Positions 3,779 to 43,731 of a stretch of DNA of 49,667 bases are shown here, one piece after another. The notes below the pieces were generated by a model. The model had not been told where the DNA came from. It saw only the letters and a program-made list of their open reading frames with translations, and did no database searches. Made by a program: the position numbers and the translations under genes. Within the stretch, counting starts at the first letter, position 1, and every line of letters starts with the position of its first letter. Origin of the DNA: Oxalobacteraceae bacterium. Lineage in GTDB: Bacteria > Pseudomonadota > Gammaproteobacteria > Burkholderiales > Burkholderiaceae_D. Location of the stretch: positions 1 to 49,667 of the forward strand of contig RGFZ01000019.1 of the NCBI GenBank assembly GCA_010024875.1, in the 5' to 3' direction.

Positions 3779-4683
3779 CACATCCCCAGCCACAAGCCCA
3801 GCGGCACAAACGCTAGCGCCGCCAGATTCCCCAGCATCACGATCGCCGCCACCTTCTCGGGCTCCTGCTTGTAGGCCTCGGCGATGACGAAGCAGAACAC
3901 GGCAGGCGGCAGTGAAGCGAACAGGAAGAGCTGTCCGCGCTGAATTGCGTTCAGAGGAATCACTAGCTCAAGCAAGGACGCAGAAGCCAATCCGGACAGT
4001 GGGCACACCACTGCGCCCACTAGACCGATGCGCCAGCTTTTGAAACTCACATCTGTCATGCGCACACCGAGCGCAAGCAGCATCAGCGGAATGCTGGCCT
4101 CGCCCAGCAGTCGCAGCGCCTGCAGCAAGGTCTCCGGCAGCGGCATCCTGAGAGCGGCAAACGCCATACCGGTCATCATGGCGAGCATCATGGGGCTGGC
4201 GAACATGCGCAACGTCGCGCGCCGCGGCCCTTGCCGGCCACTCTCGAGCAAGCGTATGCCCGCGGTGAAGTACATGAGACTGCACGCCATGAACAAGGCC
4301 ACGGCTTCTGACAGTCCGGTCGAGCCGAAGGCCAGCACGGCGAGCGGCAAGCCCATATTGCCGCAATTGTTGTACATCATCGGCGGTACAAAAGTGCGTG
4401 GGTCATAACCCAGCAGCCGTGCAACAGGCCAGGACAGCAGCGCTGAGCCCAGCGCAACCAGCGCGCCAGCAATGATCAGCGGGAGATTCGCCTGTAGATC
4501 AAAATCCTTCGAGGCCAGCGCAGAGAACAGCAGCAACGGACACAGCAGCTCGACGCTCAGTCGATTGACTGCGGCGAGATCGTTCTTGACAGTCTCGCCG
4601 CGCAAACGCGTGTAACCATAACCTACGGCAATCATCAGAAACACTGGCAAGATGATGCCCAGAATACGTTGAAAGACTTCCAT
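3778..4683 (-). CDS. AEC family transporter (auxin efflux carrier type permease)
   Basis: Inner-membrane permease of the AEC/bile-acid-transporter superfamily. It has 301 residues and about ten hydrophobic helices. The N-terminal VFLMIAVGYGYTRLRGET and the mid-protein MMYNNCGNMGLPLAVLAFG (the conserved Asn/Gly-Pro region) are typical of the family. Bacterial relatives export malonate, malate or unknown organic solutes, and the substrate here is unknown. It starts 18 nt after the stop of the upstream Kef-type antiporter, so the two are probably cotranscribed. It converges on uvrA, and its stop codon abuts the uvrA terminator. Confidence 0.85.
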   Translation of the reverse strand: MEVFQRILGIILPVFLMIAVGYGYTRLRGETVKNDLAAVNRLSVELLCPLLLFSALASKDFDLQANLPLIIAGALVALGSALLSWPVARLLGYDPRTFVPPMMYNNCGNMGLPLAVLAFGSTGLSEAVALFMACSLMYFTAGIRLLESGRQGPRRATLRMFASPMMLAMMTGMAFAALRMPLPETLLQALRLLGEASIPLMLLALGVRMTDVSFKSWRIGLVGAVVCPLSGLASASLLELVIPLNAIQRGQLFLFASLPPAVFCFVIAEAYKQEPEKVAAIVMLGNLAALAFVPLGLWLGM

Positions 4684-32459: not shown

Positions 32460-32492
32460 AAAAACCCTGGAGAAAGGGGGGTCTCCAGGGTT
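32458..32492. terminator. Strong hairpin after engB, asymmetric terminator
   Basis: An 11-bp perfect stem AACCCTGGAGA/TCTCCAGGGTT (arms 32463-32473 and 32482-32492). On the plus strand only TTCAAC follows. On the minus strand the hairpin is followed by TTTTTTATG, a much better terminator. It may end engB, or end an unseen minus-strand transcript from the hemB leader. Confidence 0.6.
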
Positions 32493-32505
32493 CAACGCCG
32501 AGCCA

Positions 32506-32618
32506 CCCTCAGGCGGAACGGCCCCGCTCAGGGAGGAGAAGCGGGAGGTGAGCAATCACCTATCAGTCTGAGGGCGGGCGCCGCGAAAAGTTCGTGAATT
32601 CGCATGCGTGCAGCCCGC
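32506..32618 (+). ncRNA. Predicted structured RNA in the hemB leader
   Basis: A three-way junction can be drawn by eye. P1 is a 9-bp stem (32506-32514 with 32566-32574, one G-U). P2 is CCCGCT/AGCGGG (32523-32528 with 32540-32545). P3 is AGGTGA/TCACCT (32546-32551 with 32556-32561), capped by a GCAA GNRA loop and stacked directly on P2. A further 6-bp stem GCGGGC/GCCCGC (32574-32579 with 32613-32618) follows. The GNRA loop exists only on the plus strand, pointing to the hemB transcript. An Rfam motif called hemB RNA is known upstream of hemB in Burkholderia; I cannot say whether this is the same. Confidence 0.5.
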
Positions 32619-36598: not shown

Positions 36599-36614
36599 GA
36601 GCATCGTCCGCAAT

Positions 36615-37397
36615 TTATCTGAGCAAGCGACGACGGGTCAGCACCGTCGCGATGTAGAAACCCACCGCGCAGTAAGCGACCAGCGCCAGCACATGTCCGC
36701 CAGCGCCATCAGGCAACCGGCCCAGCAGCAATGGTCGCACAAGCTGAACCGCGGCGCCCAGCGGCAGAATATCGGTCGCCGCCTGCAGCCAGCCGGGCAA
36801 CTGCCGTGCTGGGTAGTAGACACCTGATAAAAAAATCATCGGTGTCAGCACTAGCGTGAAGTAATACGTAAAGAAATCATAGCCACGGGCGATCGCATTC
36901 ATGATCAGCGCGATAGATGCAAAAGTCATTCCGACCAGGAAAAGCACTGGGGGAACTAATAACGTGGTCGGATGTAGGCCTATGCCCAGCATGAATAGCA
37001 CGAGCAAGATCGCCAATCCAGAAATCAATGCCTTGCTGGCTGCCCACAGCATCTCGGCCAGCACGATATCGTCGAGCGCCAGCGGCGTGTTCAGCAAAGA
37101 TTCCCAGGTCTTTTGCGCATGCATGCGCGAGAATGCGGAGTACAAAGCCTCAAAGGATGCGGCCATCATCACGGACATGGCTATGGATCCGCTGGCCAAA
37201 AATTCAATGTACGGTATGCCATCGATGTGCTGCAGCAGGCTGCCTAGTCCATAACCGAATGCGATCAGCGTGATCATGGGTTCAGCGATATTACCTATCA
37301 CGCTGGCGATGGCCAGCTTGCGCCAGACGAGGAAGTTACGCCGCCAGACCGGAATGAAGCGCAGACTGAGCGCAGGAGGAAGATAAAATCGCGACAT
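36615..37397 (-). CDS. ABC-2 type transporter permease (NodJ family)
   Basis: Inner-membrane permease of 260 residues with six helices, partner of the ATPase encoded just upstream. It resembles NodJ/YadH exporters: N-terminal FIPVWRRNFLVWRKLAIASVIGNIAEPMI, SFEALYSAFSRMHAQKTWESLLNTPL, and the PMIFLSGVYYPARQLPGWLQ loop before helix 6. NodJ itself exports lipochitin oligosaccharides, but non-symbiotic relatives have unknown substrates. No nod genes are nearby, so a nodulation role is not implied. Confidence 0.88.
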   Translation of the reverse strand: MSRFYLPPALSLRFIPVWRRNFLVWRKLAIASVIGNIAEPMITLIAFGYGLGSLLQHIDGIPYIEFLASGSIAMSVMMAASFEALYSAFSRMHAQKTWESLLNTPLALDDIVLAEMLWAASKALISGLAILLVLFMLGIGLHPTTLLVPPVLFLVGMTFASIALIMNAIARGYDFFTYYFTLVLTPMIFLSGVYYPARQLPGWLQAATDILPLGAAVQLVRPLLLGRLPDGAGGHVLALVAYCAVGFYIATVLTRRRLLR

Positions 37398-37409
37398 CAG
37401 ATCACTCGC

Positions 37410-38330
37410 TCAGTCCCGCATCTCTCGACCGGTTAACTTCAAAAACAAATCTTCGAGATTCGCAGGACGATGCAGATAGCGCAGCCCTTTCACCCCAGCC
37501 AGATTCTGCAATAAAGGCTCTGCATTACGGACATAACAGAACACAGTGTCACCACTGATCTCGATGCGATCCGCCAGTGCCCGTGCACGTTGCTCCCATG
37601 AGTCGATATTTTCACCGTACACCTCCAGTACCTGAGGCTCGATATACTGAGCGATCAACTCGTGCGGGGCACCCTCGGCGATCATGCGCCCGTGATCGAT
37701 CACGGCCAGACGATCACACAGGCGCTCGGCTTCATCCATGAAGTGGGTCGTCAGCAGGATAGTCTTGCCGGATGAAAGCAGGGTTTTCAGGCGCTCCCAG
37801 ATCAAGTGCCTTGCCTGCGGGTCGAGGCCGGTGGTCGGCTCATCCATGAAGATCAGATCGGGATCATTCACCAGTGCGCGTGCGAGGGTCAGACGCCGCT
37901 TCATGCCGCCTGAGAGCTCGCTAATGCGCGCGCGGCGTTTCGCCGTAAGGCTGGCGAATTCAAGCAGCCACGGCAATCGGGCAGCTATCTCGTGGTCCCG
38001 CAGGCCGAAATAGCGACCATAGACCTGCAGGTTTTCTTCCACCGTAAAATCCGGATCGAGGCTGTCTATCTGTGGCACCACGCCGACCCGCATGCGCGCA
38101 AGCCGCGCGCTCGCGGGTACGTCGCGCCCGACTAGTGTGATCTGTCCATGATCAGGCTCGGCAAGCCCGAGGCATAGCTTCAGCGTCGTCGTCTTACCTG
38201 CACCGTTCGGCCCCAGCAGACCATAGCACTCACCCTGCCTGAGGCTGAACGAGAGCCCATTGATCACGCCAACGCGGGTAGCCCCCTCACCGTAGGATTT
38301 ATGCAGGTCGGTCACTCGGAGGATGGACAT
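37410..38330 (-). CDS. ABC transporter ATP-binding protein (NodI family)
   Basis: Cytoplasmic ATPase of an ABC-2 exporter, 306 residues from the ATG at 38330. Walker A is GPNGAGKTT (residues 40-48), Q-loop [18 protein letters not shown], signature [15 protein letters not shown], Walker [15 protein letters not shown], and the switch His in [12 protein letters not shown]. The ~80-residue C-terminal domain ending [16 protein letters not shown] is typical of NodI. Sixteen in-frame codons upstream reach 38378 but are not conserved. It starts a likely unit ATPase-permease-cutA-dsbD, just beyond the terminator of the ribosomal operon. Confidence 0.9.
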
Positions 38331-38393
38331 GGCGTTGTTGCAGACAAAGGCAGTCCATGATGTTGCCACAAACCGCACAAATATTCCGGGCCC

Positions 38394-38430
38394 AAAAAAC
38401 GCAAAAGCCAGACTAAGCTGGCTTTTGCGT
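38394..38430 (-). terminator. Intrinsic terminator of the ribosomal protein cluster
   Basis: A 13-bp perfect stem (38399-38411 with 38418-38430, loop ACTAAG) is followed on the minus strand by six T residues. It lies 20 nt after the rplQ stop and ends the alpha operon. Confidence 0.9.
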
Positions 38431-38450
38431 GTATGTCCGGCTGTGCAGAC

Positions 38451-38837
38451 TCAGGCCGCTGCAGCGTCTGCTACGTGCTCAGGACGATCGACTAATTCGA
38501 CATAGGCCATAGGCGCATTGTCGCCAACGCGGAAACCCATTTTCAGGATGCGCATGTAGCCGCCGTTGCGGTTCGCGTAGCGGGGGCCGATCTCGGCGAA
38601 CAACTTGACGACGATTTCGCGGTCGCGCAGGCGATTGAATGCCAGGCGCTTGTTCGCCAGCGTATCGTTCTTCGCGAGCGTGATGATAGGTTCGACGACG
38701 CGGCGCAGCTCTTTGGCCTTGGGCAGTGTGGTCTTGATCGCTTCGTGACGCAGCAGCGAAACAGTCATGTTGCGCAGCATCGCCAGACGATGCGACGATG
38801 TACGATTCAGTTTACGGAGTCCGTGACGGTGACGCAT
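38451..38837 (-). CDS. rplQ: 50S ribosomal protein L17
   Basis: Large-subunit protein at the exit-tunnel side of the ribosome. It has 128 residues: [21 protein letters not shown], the conserved basic start, through [20 protein letters not shown]. The short Ala-rich tail (ADAAAA) is normal for the group. It is the last gene of the alpha operon (rpsM-rpsK-rpsD-rpoA-rplQ), separated from rpoA by 121 nt that contain a small CCGGAG/CTCCGG hairpin (38943-38957). Confidence 0.97.
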
Positions 38838-38958
38838 GGTATTTCCTTTTCAGAGTTTTCAATCCAGCTCTTCTATCGACGGGCCCAAACTTCTGTGATG
38901 AGGTTCAGGCACTGCGCGGGCCGGTAAATAGTGTTGTTCAGGCCGGAGATTCTCCGGG

Positions 38959-39936
38959 TTACTTGTCGAGACCTGCCGGTGGCCAGTTCTCGAGCTTCAT
39001 GCCCAGCGTGAGGCCACGCGAAGCAAGGACCTCTTTGATTTCGTTGAGCGACTTGCGGCCAAGGTTGGGGGTCTTCAGCAGCTCGTTCTCGCTGCGTTGA
39101 ATCAGGTCGCCGATGTAGTAGATGTTCTCGGCTTTGAGGCAGTTTGCGGAACGTACGGTGAGCTCGAGATCGTCGACCGGACGCAGCAGGATAGGATCGA
39201 CGGTCGGAGCGCGCGACGGGGCCTCGGCTGCAGTCTCAGTACCCTCCAGAGCGGCGAACACATTCAGCTGATCCACCAGCACACGCGCGGACTGACGGAT
39301 GGCCTCTTCGGGAGTGATCACGCCATTGGTCTCGATGTTGATGACCAGTTTGTCCAGATCGGTGCGCTGCTCCACGCGAGCAGAGTCGACCGCGTAAGAC
39401 ACGCGCTTGACCGGAGAGAACGACGCATCGAGGATGATGCGGCCGATCGTCTTGTTGGCATCTTCAGCGAGACGACGTACGTTGCCGGGCACATAGCCAC
39501 GACCTTTCTCAACCTTCAGCTGCATATCGAGCTTGCCACCCGGCGTCAGATGAGCGATCACATGGTCGGGGTTGATCAATTCGACGTCATGTGGCAGATC
39601 GATGTCGGACGCCAGCACCGGGCCTTCGCCTTCTTTTTTGAGGCTCAGGGTCACTTCATCGCGACTGTGCAGCTTGAACACGACGCCCTTGAGGTTCAGC
39701 AGGATATCAACCACGTCTTCCTGCACACCATCCAACGAGGAATACTCATGAACGACGCCAGCGATGGTGACTTCAGTCGGCGCGTAACCCACCATCGACG
39801 ACAGGAGCACGCGGCGCAGCGCATTGCCCAGCGTGTGGCCATAGCCACGCTCGAACGGCTCCATCACGACTTTGGCGTGGCCGAGACCGAGCGGTTCGAC
39901 TTCGATGATTCGGGGCTTTAAGAGATTGTTTTGCAT
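38959..39936 (-). CDS. rpoA: DNA-directed RNA polymerase subunit alpha
   Basis: Assembly platform of RNA polymerase. It has 325 residues. The N-terminal domain contains [35 protein letters not shown], the dimer and beta/beta' contact region. After a flexible linker ([13 protein letters not shown]) the C-terminal domain carries the helix-hairpin-helix surface [22 protein letters not shown] and [18 protein letters not shown], which binds UP elements and activators. It lies between rpsD and rplQ, as in all proteobacterial alpha operons. Confidence 0.98.
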
Positions 39937-40028
39937 GAATGTCCTTTCAATACCCTCGGCTCGTTACACCGATAAGGCTGATGGCATATCGAAAGGCGCT
40001 GACAGCATGACCGCCAGCGCCGGGGAAA

Positions 40029-40652
40029 TTATCGTGAGTACAATTCGACGATCAGTGACTCGTTGACTTCTTGGTTGAAGTCGGAGCGGTCTGGCAAAGT
40101 CTTGAGCGAGCCTTCCATCTTCTTGGCATCGACAGCGACCCAGATCGGGAAACCCGTCTGCTCGGCTAGCGACAGCGCCTCGGCGATACGAACCTGCTTC
40201 TTGGCCTTCTCGCGCACGGCAACGACATCGCCCACCTTGACCTGATACGAGGGAATGTTCACGACATGGCCGTTCACGGTGATCGCCTTGTGCGAGACCA
40301 ACTGTCGGCCTTCGGCGCGGGTGGATGCAAATCCCAAGCGGTATACGACATTGTCCAGACGCGACTCGAGCAATTGCAGCAGGGTCTCGCCAGTGTTTCC
40401 TTTGCGGCGATCAGCCTCTGCAAAGTAGCGGCGGAACTGACGCTCCAGTACACCATAGATACGCTTGACCTTCTGCTTTTCACGTAACTGATTGCCGTAG
40501 TCGGAGGTGCGAGCGCCCGAGGTACGGCCATGCTGACCAGGTTTGGAATCGAGCTTGCACTTGGATTCCAGCGAGCGTCGTGCGCTCTTCAGGAAAAGGT
40601 CGGTGCCTTCACGGCGTGAGAGTTTAGCTTTGGGTCCAATATAACGTGCCAC
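40029..40652 (-). CDS. rpsD: 30S ribosomal protein S4
   Basis: Primary 16S rRNA binding protein and, in E. coli, the translational repressor of the alpha operon. It has 207 residues, with [28 protein letters not shown] at the start and an S4 RNA-binding domain around [31 protein letters not shown]. It lies 138 nt after rpsK, and that spacer holds a terminator-like hairpin. Confidence 0.98.
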
Positions 40653-40741
40653 GTTGTTTCCTTTTTTTCAGTGACGCCCCGGCAGCAATGCTGTCAGGCG
40701 CTAGTCTGGTCTGCGTGCTACCAGACGGTGGTCTTCAGAAC

Positions 40742-40764
40742 AAAACCCGCCTGACGAGGCGGGT
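40742..40764 (-). terminator. Terminator-like hairpin between rpsK and rpsD
   Basis: A perfect 8-bp stem ACCCGCCT/AGGCGGGT (40745-40752 with 40757-40764) with a 4-nt loop is followed on the minus strand by TTTTGTTCT. It resembles an intrinsic terminator but sits inside the alpha operon, 27 nt after the rpsK stop. Partial read-through would be needed to express rpsD-rpoA-rplQ unless there is a promoter in the rest of the spacer. Confidence 0.6.
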
Positions 40765-40790
40765 CACCTGCGGATGCTACTTAAAAAGGC

Positions 40791-41195
40791 TTAGATACGG
40801 CGACGCTTCGGCGGACGGCAGCCGTTATGGGGCACGGGCGTGACATCCTGGATCTGGGTGATCTTGATGCCGAGGCTGTTCAGAGCACGAACCGCAGATT
40901 CGCGACCCGGGCCGGGGCCCTTGATGCGAACCTCGAGATTCTTGACACCGCATTCAACGGCAACTTTGCCAGCCGCTTCAGCAGCAACCTGTGCTGCAAA
41001 GGGGGTCGATTTGCGCGAGCCCTTGAAGCCAGCACCACCCGATGTCGCCCAAGACAAGGCATTGCCTTGACGATCAGTGATCGTGATGATGGTGTTGTTG
41101 AAGGACGCGTGAATATGCGCGATACCCTCGGCAACGTTCTTTTTGACTTTCTTGCGAACGCGCGCGGATGCGGCGTTGTTCGGTGATTTTGCCAT
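40791..41195 (-). CDS. rpsK: 30S ribosomal protein S11
   Basis: Platform protein of the small subunit near the mRNA exit and Shine-Dalgarno helix. It has 134 residues: basic N-terminus ([13 protein letters not shown]), [43 protein letters not shown] and the C-terminal [18 protein letters not shown], all nearly invariant. It follows rpsM by 27 nt. Confidence 0.98.
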
Positions 41196-41222
41196 GGTGG
41201 TTTCCTTGAATCCGCTACAGGA

Positions 41223-41588
41223 TTACTTCTTCAGCGCTTGCGCTGCTTTACGCGGTCCCTTGCGGGTGCGGGCATTGGTTCGTGTACGCTGGCCGCGAAC
41301 CGGCAAGCCGCGGCGATGACGAAGACCGCGATAGCAACCGAGGTCCATCAGTCGCTTGATGTTCATCGACAGCTCACGGCGGAGGTCACCCTCTACGATG
41401 AACTTGCCGATCTCGTCGCGCAGCTTTTCAAGTTCGTTATCGTCGAGATCCTTGACCTTCTTGTTGATCGGAACGCCGGTAGATGCACAGATCTTCTCTG
41501 CGCGCGGGCGACCGATGCCATAGATGGCGGTCAGGCCAATCACGGTGTGCTGGTGGTTGGGGATGTTGACCCCTGCAATACGTGCCAT
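41223..41588 (-). CDS. rpsM: 30S ribosomal protein S13
   Basis: Head protein that bridges to the 50S subunit and touches P-site tRNA. It has 121 residues from [26 protein letters not shown] to the basic tail [25 protein letters not shown]. The helix-hairpin-helix core is normal. It starts 28 nt after rpmJ. Confidence 0.98.
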
Positions 41589-41616: not shown

Positions 41617-41730
41617 TTAACCCTGGCGCTGCTTATGGCGGGGTTCGGTGCAAATCACGCGAACGACGCCCTTGCGCTTGATGATCTTGCAATTGCGGCA
41701 GATCCGCTTCACTGATGCGAGCACTTTCAT
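41617..41730 (-). CDS. rpmJ: 50S ribosomal protein L36
   Basis: Small zinc-ribbon protein of the large subunit, 37 residues: [20 protein letters not shown] followed by [17 protein letters not shown]. Zinc ligands Cys11, Cys14, Cys27 and His32 are all present, so this is the zinc-containing form. It lies between the broken infA and rpsM, its usual place. Confidence 0.96.
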
Positions 41731-41758: not shown

Positions 41759-41923
41759 TTACTGGCTAGTTACTTTGTGCGGAAAACAATCCGCGCCCTG
41801 CTCAAATCGTACGGCGTCAGTTCGACTGTCACCTTGTCGCCCGGAAGTATGCGGATATAGTTCATTCGCATCTTTCCAGAAATATGCCTCGCCCTGCATC
41901 TGAATCACGTCGTCTTTGGACAT
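41759..41923 (-). pseudogene. infA: Translation initiation factor IF-1, frameshifted by a 65-nt internal deletion
   Basis: From the ATG at 41923 the frame reads [12 protein letters not shown], the normal IF-1 start, then departs into an unrelated sequence ending at 41759 (54 residues). In the next frame the intact C-terminal half follows at once: [20 protein letters not shown] and onward to RIVFRTK with its stop at 41770. Residues about 13-34 (the VxENLPNxxFRVxLENGHVVxG part of the OB fold) are missing. From start to true stop there are 154 nt where 219 are expected, so 65 nt are lost. IF-1 is normally essential; many Burkholderiales carry a second infA, which could tolerate this. A sequencing or assembly error is the main alternative. 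Confidence 0.88.
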
Positions 41924-41945: not shown

Positions 41946-43277
41946 TCAGCGCGGCAAGATGCCGCCTTTGAAGTTTGCCTTGCGCAGCAGCGATTCATAC
42001 TGCTGCGACATTACATAGTTTTGTACCTGCGCCATGAAGTCCATCGTAACCACCACGATGATCAGCAGCGACGTGCCACCGAAATAGAAGGGCACATTCC
42101 AACGAGCGATCAAGAATTCTGGCAGCAAGCAAATCAGCGTGATGTACACCGCCCCCGCCAGCGTAAGACGCGTCAGGATCCGGTCGATGTAACGCGCGGT
42201 CTGCTCGCCCGGACGGATGCCAGGAACAAAGGCGCCGCTCTTCTTCAGGTTGTCGGCGGTTTCTTTGCTATTGAACACCAGCGCGGTATAAAAAAAGCAG
42301 AAGAACACGATCGCAGCCGCATAAAGCAACGCATGAATAGGTTCACCCGGTGCCAGTGAAGCTGCCAGATCTTTCAGAAAACGAACAACACCACTATCAA
42401 CATTCCCTGAGGTGAACCAGCTTGTGATCGTTGCCGGGAACAGGATGATCGACGATGCGAAGATCGGCGGGATAACTCCCGACATATTCAATTTCAGTGG
42501 CAGATGACTGCTCTGTCCGCCATACACCTTGTTTCCTACCTGACGCTTCGCATAATTGACCAAAATCTTGCGTTGGCCACGTTCAATGAATACGACGAGA
42601 TAGGTCACTAACGCAACGATCACACAGATCAGAATGGCGCTCAACGCGTTCATGGAGCCTGTGCGAACAAGTTCGAACAAGCCGCCCAGCGCGTTGGGCA
42701 AACCAGCGGCAATGCCCGCGAAGATGATGATCGAGATACCATTACCCAAGCCACGCTCGGTAATCTGTTCGCCCAGCCACATCAAAAACATCGTCCCCGT
42801 CACCAGCGTCACCACGGTCGTAAAACGGAAAGCCAGACCCGGGTCGATCACCAGACGCGCCTGGGATTCCAGTGCAATGGCAATGCCCAACGCCTGAAAG
42901 GTCGCCAACAGCAGCGTTCCGTAACGGGTGTATTGCGTGATCTTCCGGCGACCCGATTCGCCTTCCTTTTTCAGCGCTTCGAGCTGCGGTGACACGACTG
43001 ACAGCAGCTGCATGATGATCGATGCCGAGATGTACGGCATGATGCCCAACGCAAAAATCGTGAAGCGCGATAGCGCACCACCAGAAAACATGTTGAACAT
43101 GCCCAGGATACCGCCGCGGTTCTGATTGAACAGCGCGGCCAGCTGAACCGGGTCGATGCCCGGAACGGGAATGTGCGCACCTATTCTGAACACCACTAGC
43201 GCAGCCAGCAAGAACCATAAACGACCCCATGGGAAGCCGCTGGCTGCACTTTTAGCGAGTTTCGGAGAGGTTGCCAC
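41946..43277 (-). CDS. secY: Preprotein translocase subunit SecY
   Basis: Central pore of the Sec translocon, with ten helices. It has 443 residues from a GTG at 43277, chosen because GTG-encoded [17 protein letters not shown] matches the usual start and GGGA lies 7 nt upstream; an extension to 43343 would overlap the end of rplO. The plug and pore helices ([15 protein letters not shown]), the cytoplasmic loop with [15 protein letters not shown] and the [29 protein letters not shown] stretch are present. It lies between rplO and infA as usual in the spc operon. Confidence 0.97.
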
Positions 43278-43299
43278 TTGATCCCAGCCTAGTCCCTGG

Positions 43300-43731
43300 T
43301 TACTCGATCGAACCGCCAGCGGCTTCGATCGCAGCCTTGGCACCGGCCGTCGCGATCAGCCCCTTGATGACCAATTTCTTGGTCAGGTCACCGGACTTGA
43401 TCACGCGAACGACGCGTGCCAGCTCGGGGACGATGCCAGCCTTTTTCAGCACAAGCACATCAACCTCACTCACCGGCAGTTTTTCCAGTTCGGACAAGCG
43501 CACTTCAGCCTTGAAAGGCTTGCTCTGCGATTTGAAACCGCGCTTGGGCAGTCGACGTTGCAGCGGCATCTGGCCGCCCTCGAAACCCACTTTGTGAAAA
43601 CCGCCTGCGCGCGACTTCTGACCCTTGTGACCACGGCCGGCGGTCTTGCCCAGACCGGAGCCAATGCCGCGACCAACGCGACGTTTGGCGTGCTTGGCAC
43701 CTGCTGCGGGTTGAATAGTGTTGAGTTCCAT
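43300..43731 (-). CDS. rplO: 50S ribosomal protein L15
   Basis: Late-assembly protein of the large subunit. It has 143 residues. The Gly-rich extended arm ([21 protein letters not shown]) reaches into 23S rRNA, and the C-terminal domain ends [14 protein letters not shown]. It is preceded by rpmD and followed by secY after 22 nt. Confidence 0.98.

Follow-up and report, generated by a model that had tools for sequence, protein, structure and literature searches.

In the draft genome of the Oxalobacteraceae bacterium studied here (G000; other G numbers denote congeners and L numbers the compared loci), the infA gene of the ribosomal-protein cluster lacks 65 nt in its middle. The gap is in the record and is absent from the congeners, the coding sequence on either side of it is unchanged, and no second infA was found in the draft. 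We consider it more likely than not that the gap is a fault of the assembly or of its consensus, or else a minority deletion allele taken up into that consensus, and that it is not the settled state of the organism; we infer that its cause lies in the reads or in the assembly. If it is an error, it warns that annotation by score can let an essential gene through in a broken state; if it is real, it catches an essential translation-factor gene of the ribosomal operon at the very start of its replacement.

The infA remnant and its junction

The window (the whole stretch of 49,667 nucleotides that was analyzed) is contig 91 of the G000 draft, which has 3,024,353 bases in 243 contigs and is rated 96.7% complete and 3.19% contaminated; we take this draft to be a metagenome bin. 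As in most congeners, infA lies between secY and rpmJ. Translation of the minus strand shows an infA start codon (ATG) at 41923 followed by 12 normal IF-1 codons (41888-41923, also aligned with the congeners), after which infA resumes at codon 35 in a different frame with 38 codons (41773-41886) and the stop codon (41770-41772); the latter portion (41770-41886, minus strand) was identified by the PF01176 and TIGR00008 profiles. The deletion junction is placed at 41886-41888 (minus strand) by congener alignment and by the difference in length: the distance from the start to the true stop is 154 nt in G000, and the equivalent stretch in congener G019 is 65 nt longer. The first-pass annotation had claimed a 65-nt out-of-frame deletion that breaks infA in the ribosomal cluster, with 12 N-terminal and 38 C-terminal codons left in different frames within 154 nt, and both the translation and the length comparison bear this out. 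The interval 41759-41923 (minus strand) is the 54-amino-acid out-of-frame ORF that begins at infA's own start codon, and the remnant proper stops at 41770; this ORF has no NCBIfam match, and infA of G000 has no single open frame of about 72 amino acids that spans the full IF-1 profile.

The C-terminal piece nevertheless scores 54.6 bits against PF01176 (cut-off 30.2) and 70.6 bits against TIGR00008 (cut-off 61.15), even though it matches only positions 30-64 of the 64 in the PF01176 profile. Because fragment 41773-41886 exceeds both curated cut-offs, score-based annotation could call it infA.

The genes on either side are secY upstream (41946-43343, minus strand; ORF list and SecY comparison), which is an open frame, and rpmJ downstream (41617-41730, minus strand; ORF list and alignment), which is intact. 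The surrounding frames, which we take by recognition to be ribosomal-protein genes, rpoA and secY, are open and of normal length, and the G000 SecY protein aligns with its relatives along nearly its full length, in agreement with the earlier statement that the genes around infA are full length. ORF tiling inspected by eye revealed no other broken gene in the window, which is a point against an error. When the junction was compared by eye with G019, about one base was found to be common to both sides of the join, which is too little for a simple overlap misjoin to account for the gap; the junction would have to be carried by some read or have been made by a finishing step.

For codons 36-72 and the stop codon of infA, 18 congener rows were available for comparison. 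Sixteen of these, G019 among them, differ from the G000 remnant by 7-28 synonymous and no nonsynonymous changes; the exceptions are G001, with 2 nonsynonymous differences, and the decayed G010 gene, with 25 in 23 codons. The G000 remnant thus gives no sign of relaxed selection (zero nonsynonymous differences from G019 and 15 further rows), and from these codons the gene appears to have been fully constrained until very recently, or to be so still. Since the retained codons carry no amino-acid change relative to those 16 rows, any real deletion must have happened very recently.

infA in the genus and the search for a second copy

A complete operon infA is present in 15 of the 21 genomes of the genus (G000 counted among the 21). 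It is cut by contig ends in G003 and G004; G010 retains only a degraded 3' infA remnant in the operon, between secY and rpmJ (G010:C3, about 32491-32557), and has an infA elsewhere in its genome; and G013 and G015 gave no match to the secY-infA-rpmJ stretch. The comparison with the closest relatives that had been proposed as a check showed the 65-nt deletion in none of the 15 congeners whose operon infA is complete, and a deletion common to the relatives was rejected. In a SecY tree with nine congeners G000 pairs with G019 (SH-aLRT 91). This sister genome, 99% complete, has the operon infA and no other copy was found in it, so its operon copy presumably carries the function.

An infA outside the operon (infA2) is found in seven of the 21 genomes (G003, G004, G007, G008, G010, G014 and G015), and G007 holds two, one of them cut by a contig end. 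Among the matches listed, the neighborhoods of infA2 vary inside the genus (an NDH-2-like gene, YceI with or without hemerythrin, and others), and infA2 looks as if it is moving or is often gained there (L044, L046-L048 and L050-L053). The contig breaks of G003 and G004 inside operon infA have details of their own: the downstream contigs of G003 (end of G003:C29) and G004 end one base apart in the gene, and the G004 pieces (end of G004:C80 and start of G004:C390) do not overlap inside it. The G003 genome gave no SecY match in spite of a completeness rating of 100%, which shows that such ratings can overlook essential genes here.

The first-pass annotation had suggested that either a second infA exists elsewhere in the genome or the sequence contains an error; no second infA was found in the draft assembly. 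PF01176 at E<=10 detected no other infA (absence from a 3.02 Mb draft in 243 contigs is not proof), an infA2 protein query found no further infA at E<=10, and nothing else in G000 matched a degenerate pattern built on a portion of the absent sequence, with up to 3 mismatches allowed. Look-ups of known infA2 sites covered the YceI and NDH-2-like contexts. The infA2 of G015 adjoins genes for FMN reductase, hemerythrin and YceI, and that of G010 adjoins YceI (names by eye). G000:C182 carries FMN reductase, hemerythrin and YceI genes in the same order and orientation as in G015; a ChaN-like frame occupies the infA2 place, the contig runs through, and no infA2 match there is better than E 0.53. The second YceI match, on C183, is also without an adjoining infA2, and the idea that infA2 is hidden at the YceI site was rejected. 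The NDH-2-like gene that adjoins infA2 in G003, G004 and G008 had no G000 match at E<=1e-60.

Within the genus, the eight copies of infA2 are closer to contig ends than chance would place them (combined p 0.0004); the 17 operon infA copies also gave a low value in this test (p 0.0007), one that is driven by G003 and G004. In a survey of the family, 283 of 294 genomes had an infA match and 11 had none at E<=1e-5. The best match in G000 (2.4e-14) was the sole one weaker than E 1e-21 among the matches listed. Good bins sometimes miss this gene, since 4 of those 11 belong to the 261 family genomes with a completeness rating of 90% or more and contamination of 5% or less. Together with the position of infA2 copies near contig ends, this means that a second copy could be missing from the G000 bin.

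Loss of operon infA in relatives

A SecY scan of named genomes gave at least 80 loci, in which operon infA was read by tblastn at E<=0.01. Among the loci listed it is present in 64 of 80 (a match over at least 69 of 72 residues; one gene matched over 69), absent or broken in 14 and unreadable in 2, so that 14 of the 78 readable loci are without an intact infA. A whole-genome infA search was given 50 of the 80 genomes and covered 49. Among the loci listed, another infA in the genome accompanies 13 of the 14 operon losses; of 35 genomes that have the operon copy, 23 carry more than one infA (Fisher p 0.075). The remaining genome with operon loss, L170, is titled a gammaproteobacterium and had no infA at E<=1e-5. 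The portion of PMC3087516 on this subject says that infA is not near the secY cluster in gammaproteobacteria.

On a SecY tree of 90 rows there are 11 changes of infA state, 10 without G000, with L170 counted as a loss; the strongly supported branches force at least 8 changes. We infer that these changes are losses rather than gains, and they suggest that replacement of operon infA has happened repeatedly in Burkholderiales. Among the papers listed in literature searches, no title or abstract opening describes such repeated loss; PMC6794327 yielded nothing on the gene, and papers seen at title level, such as PMC7042692 and PMC7019866, may hold more. The operon infA of Massilia aurea JCM 13879 (L105; about 4360-4570) has internal stops, and another infA lies elsewhere in that genome. 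Short IF-1-like tails were seen by eye in L130 and L141.

The proposal that the operon copy is decaying in favor of a paralogue is thus supported in relatives (the 13 of 14 genomes above, G010 and L105), but for G000 itself the paralogue was not found.

Alternative explanations and known systems

How might a gap of this kind have arisen? In the reading that we favor, the consensus would be chimeric, of low coverage or badly finished at a spot that assembles poorly in the genus, or alternatively a minority deletion allele would have entered it; the organism itself would then have an unbroken operon infA that supplies its IF-1, which the part of PMC13030852 concerned describes as one of three essential bacterial initiation factors. 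The contigs of G003 and G004, which likewise end inside infA, speak for an error; the loss of operon infA, frequent across the order and also seen within the genus, speaks against one. The competing explanation that deserves most weight is a real and very recent deletion, with a second infA of the infA2 type unassembled or unbinned and the operon copy just beginning to decay. We regard this as possible but less likely than an error; both gradings are judgements and not computed values. Much in the relatives is consistent with it: operon loss at 14 of the 80 loci listed (13 of them in genomes with another infA), the 11 state changes (10 without G000) in the SecY tree, the internal stops of L105, the G010 remnant accompanied by an infA elsewhere, the seven of 21 genus genomes with infA outside the operon, and the tendency of infA2 copies towards contig ends. 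However, infA2 was seen neither in G000, nor beside either of its YceI genes, nor in G019; the deletion must be too young for any amino-acid change in the remnant; and an unbroken operon copy is also often accompanied by a further infA (23 of 35 versus 13 of 14, p 0.075). It is because the paralogue was not found, and infA2 is absent from one known site where the contig runs through, that an error seems the likelier branch.

The two remaining explanations are both far less probable. A contig that joins two species at infA is very unlikely, in spite of several features that resemble one: the C-terminal stretch is nearer to G003, G004 and G011 than to G019 (7 versus 17 synonymous differences); among 11 congeners, G019 comes closest in 15 of 26 upstream 300-nt bins (42000 on) and in only 5 of 17 downstream bins (36600-41400); and over 36600-40600 G019 (78%) is no nearer than G007 (78%). 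However, G019 is the nearest congener for both bins adjoining infA on the downstream side (41100 and 41400) and for none of the first four on the upstream side (42000-42900), rpmJ is 97% G019-like, and shuffling reproduces the affinity of the C-terminal tract often enough (in 722, 597 and 1098 of 2000 shuffles) for chance to account for it. The change in similarity does not coincide with infA, a two-species chimera there is not supported, and the contig is probably not chimeric at this gene. We give least credence of all to a real and fixed deletion in a betaproteobacterium with a 3 Mb genome and no recognizable IF-1, in which some other factor, for example an altered IF-2, would do the work of IF-1. 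No infA other than the remnant was found in the G000 draft, and the part of PMC13030852 that deals with mammalian mitochondrial IF2 states that it supports E. coli deleted for IF2 and IF1; but G019 and 14 other congeners have the whole operon infA, and the same source describes IF-1 as essential in bacteria.

Compared with the operon infA of the secY-infA-rpmJ cluster in Burkholderiales, G000 shares the position, the first 12 codons and the last 38, but the middle is absent and the frame broken. Like G000, members of the Comamonadaceae and others with infA elsewhere have no functional infA between secY and rpmJ; 13 of the 14 operon-loss genomes have another infA, whereas none was found in G000. 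M. aurea L105 resembles G000 in that a remnant of infA still stands between secY and rpmJ, but that remnant carries internal stops and many changes and is backed by another infA, whereas the G000 gene has one clean deletion and a second copy was not found. A printed example of a second betaproteobacterial infA, in the portion of PMC2864759 that names it, is infA2 (Rmet_5176) of Cupriavidus metallidurans CH34.
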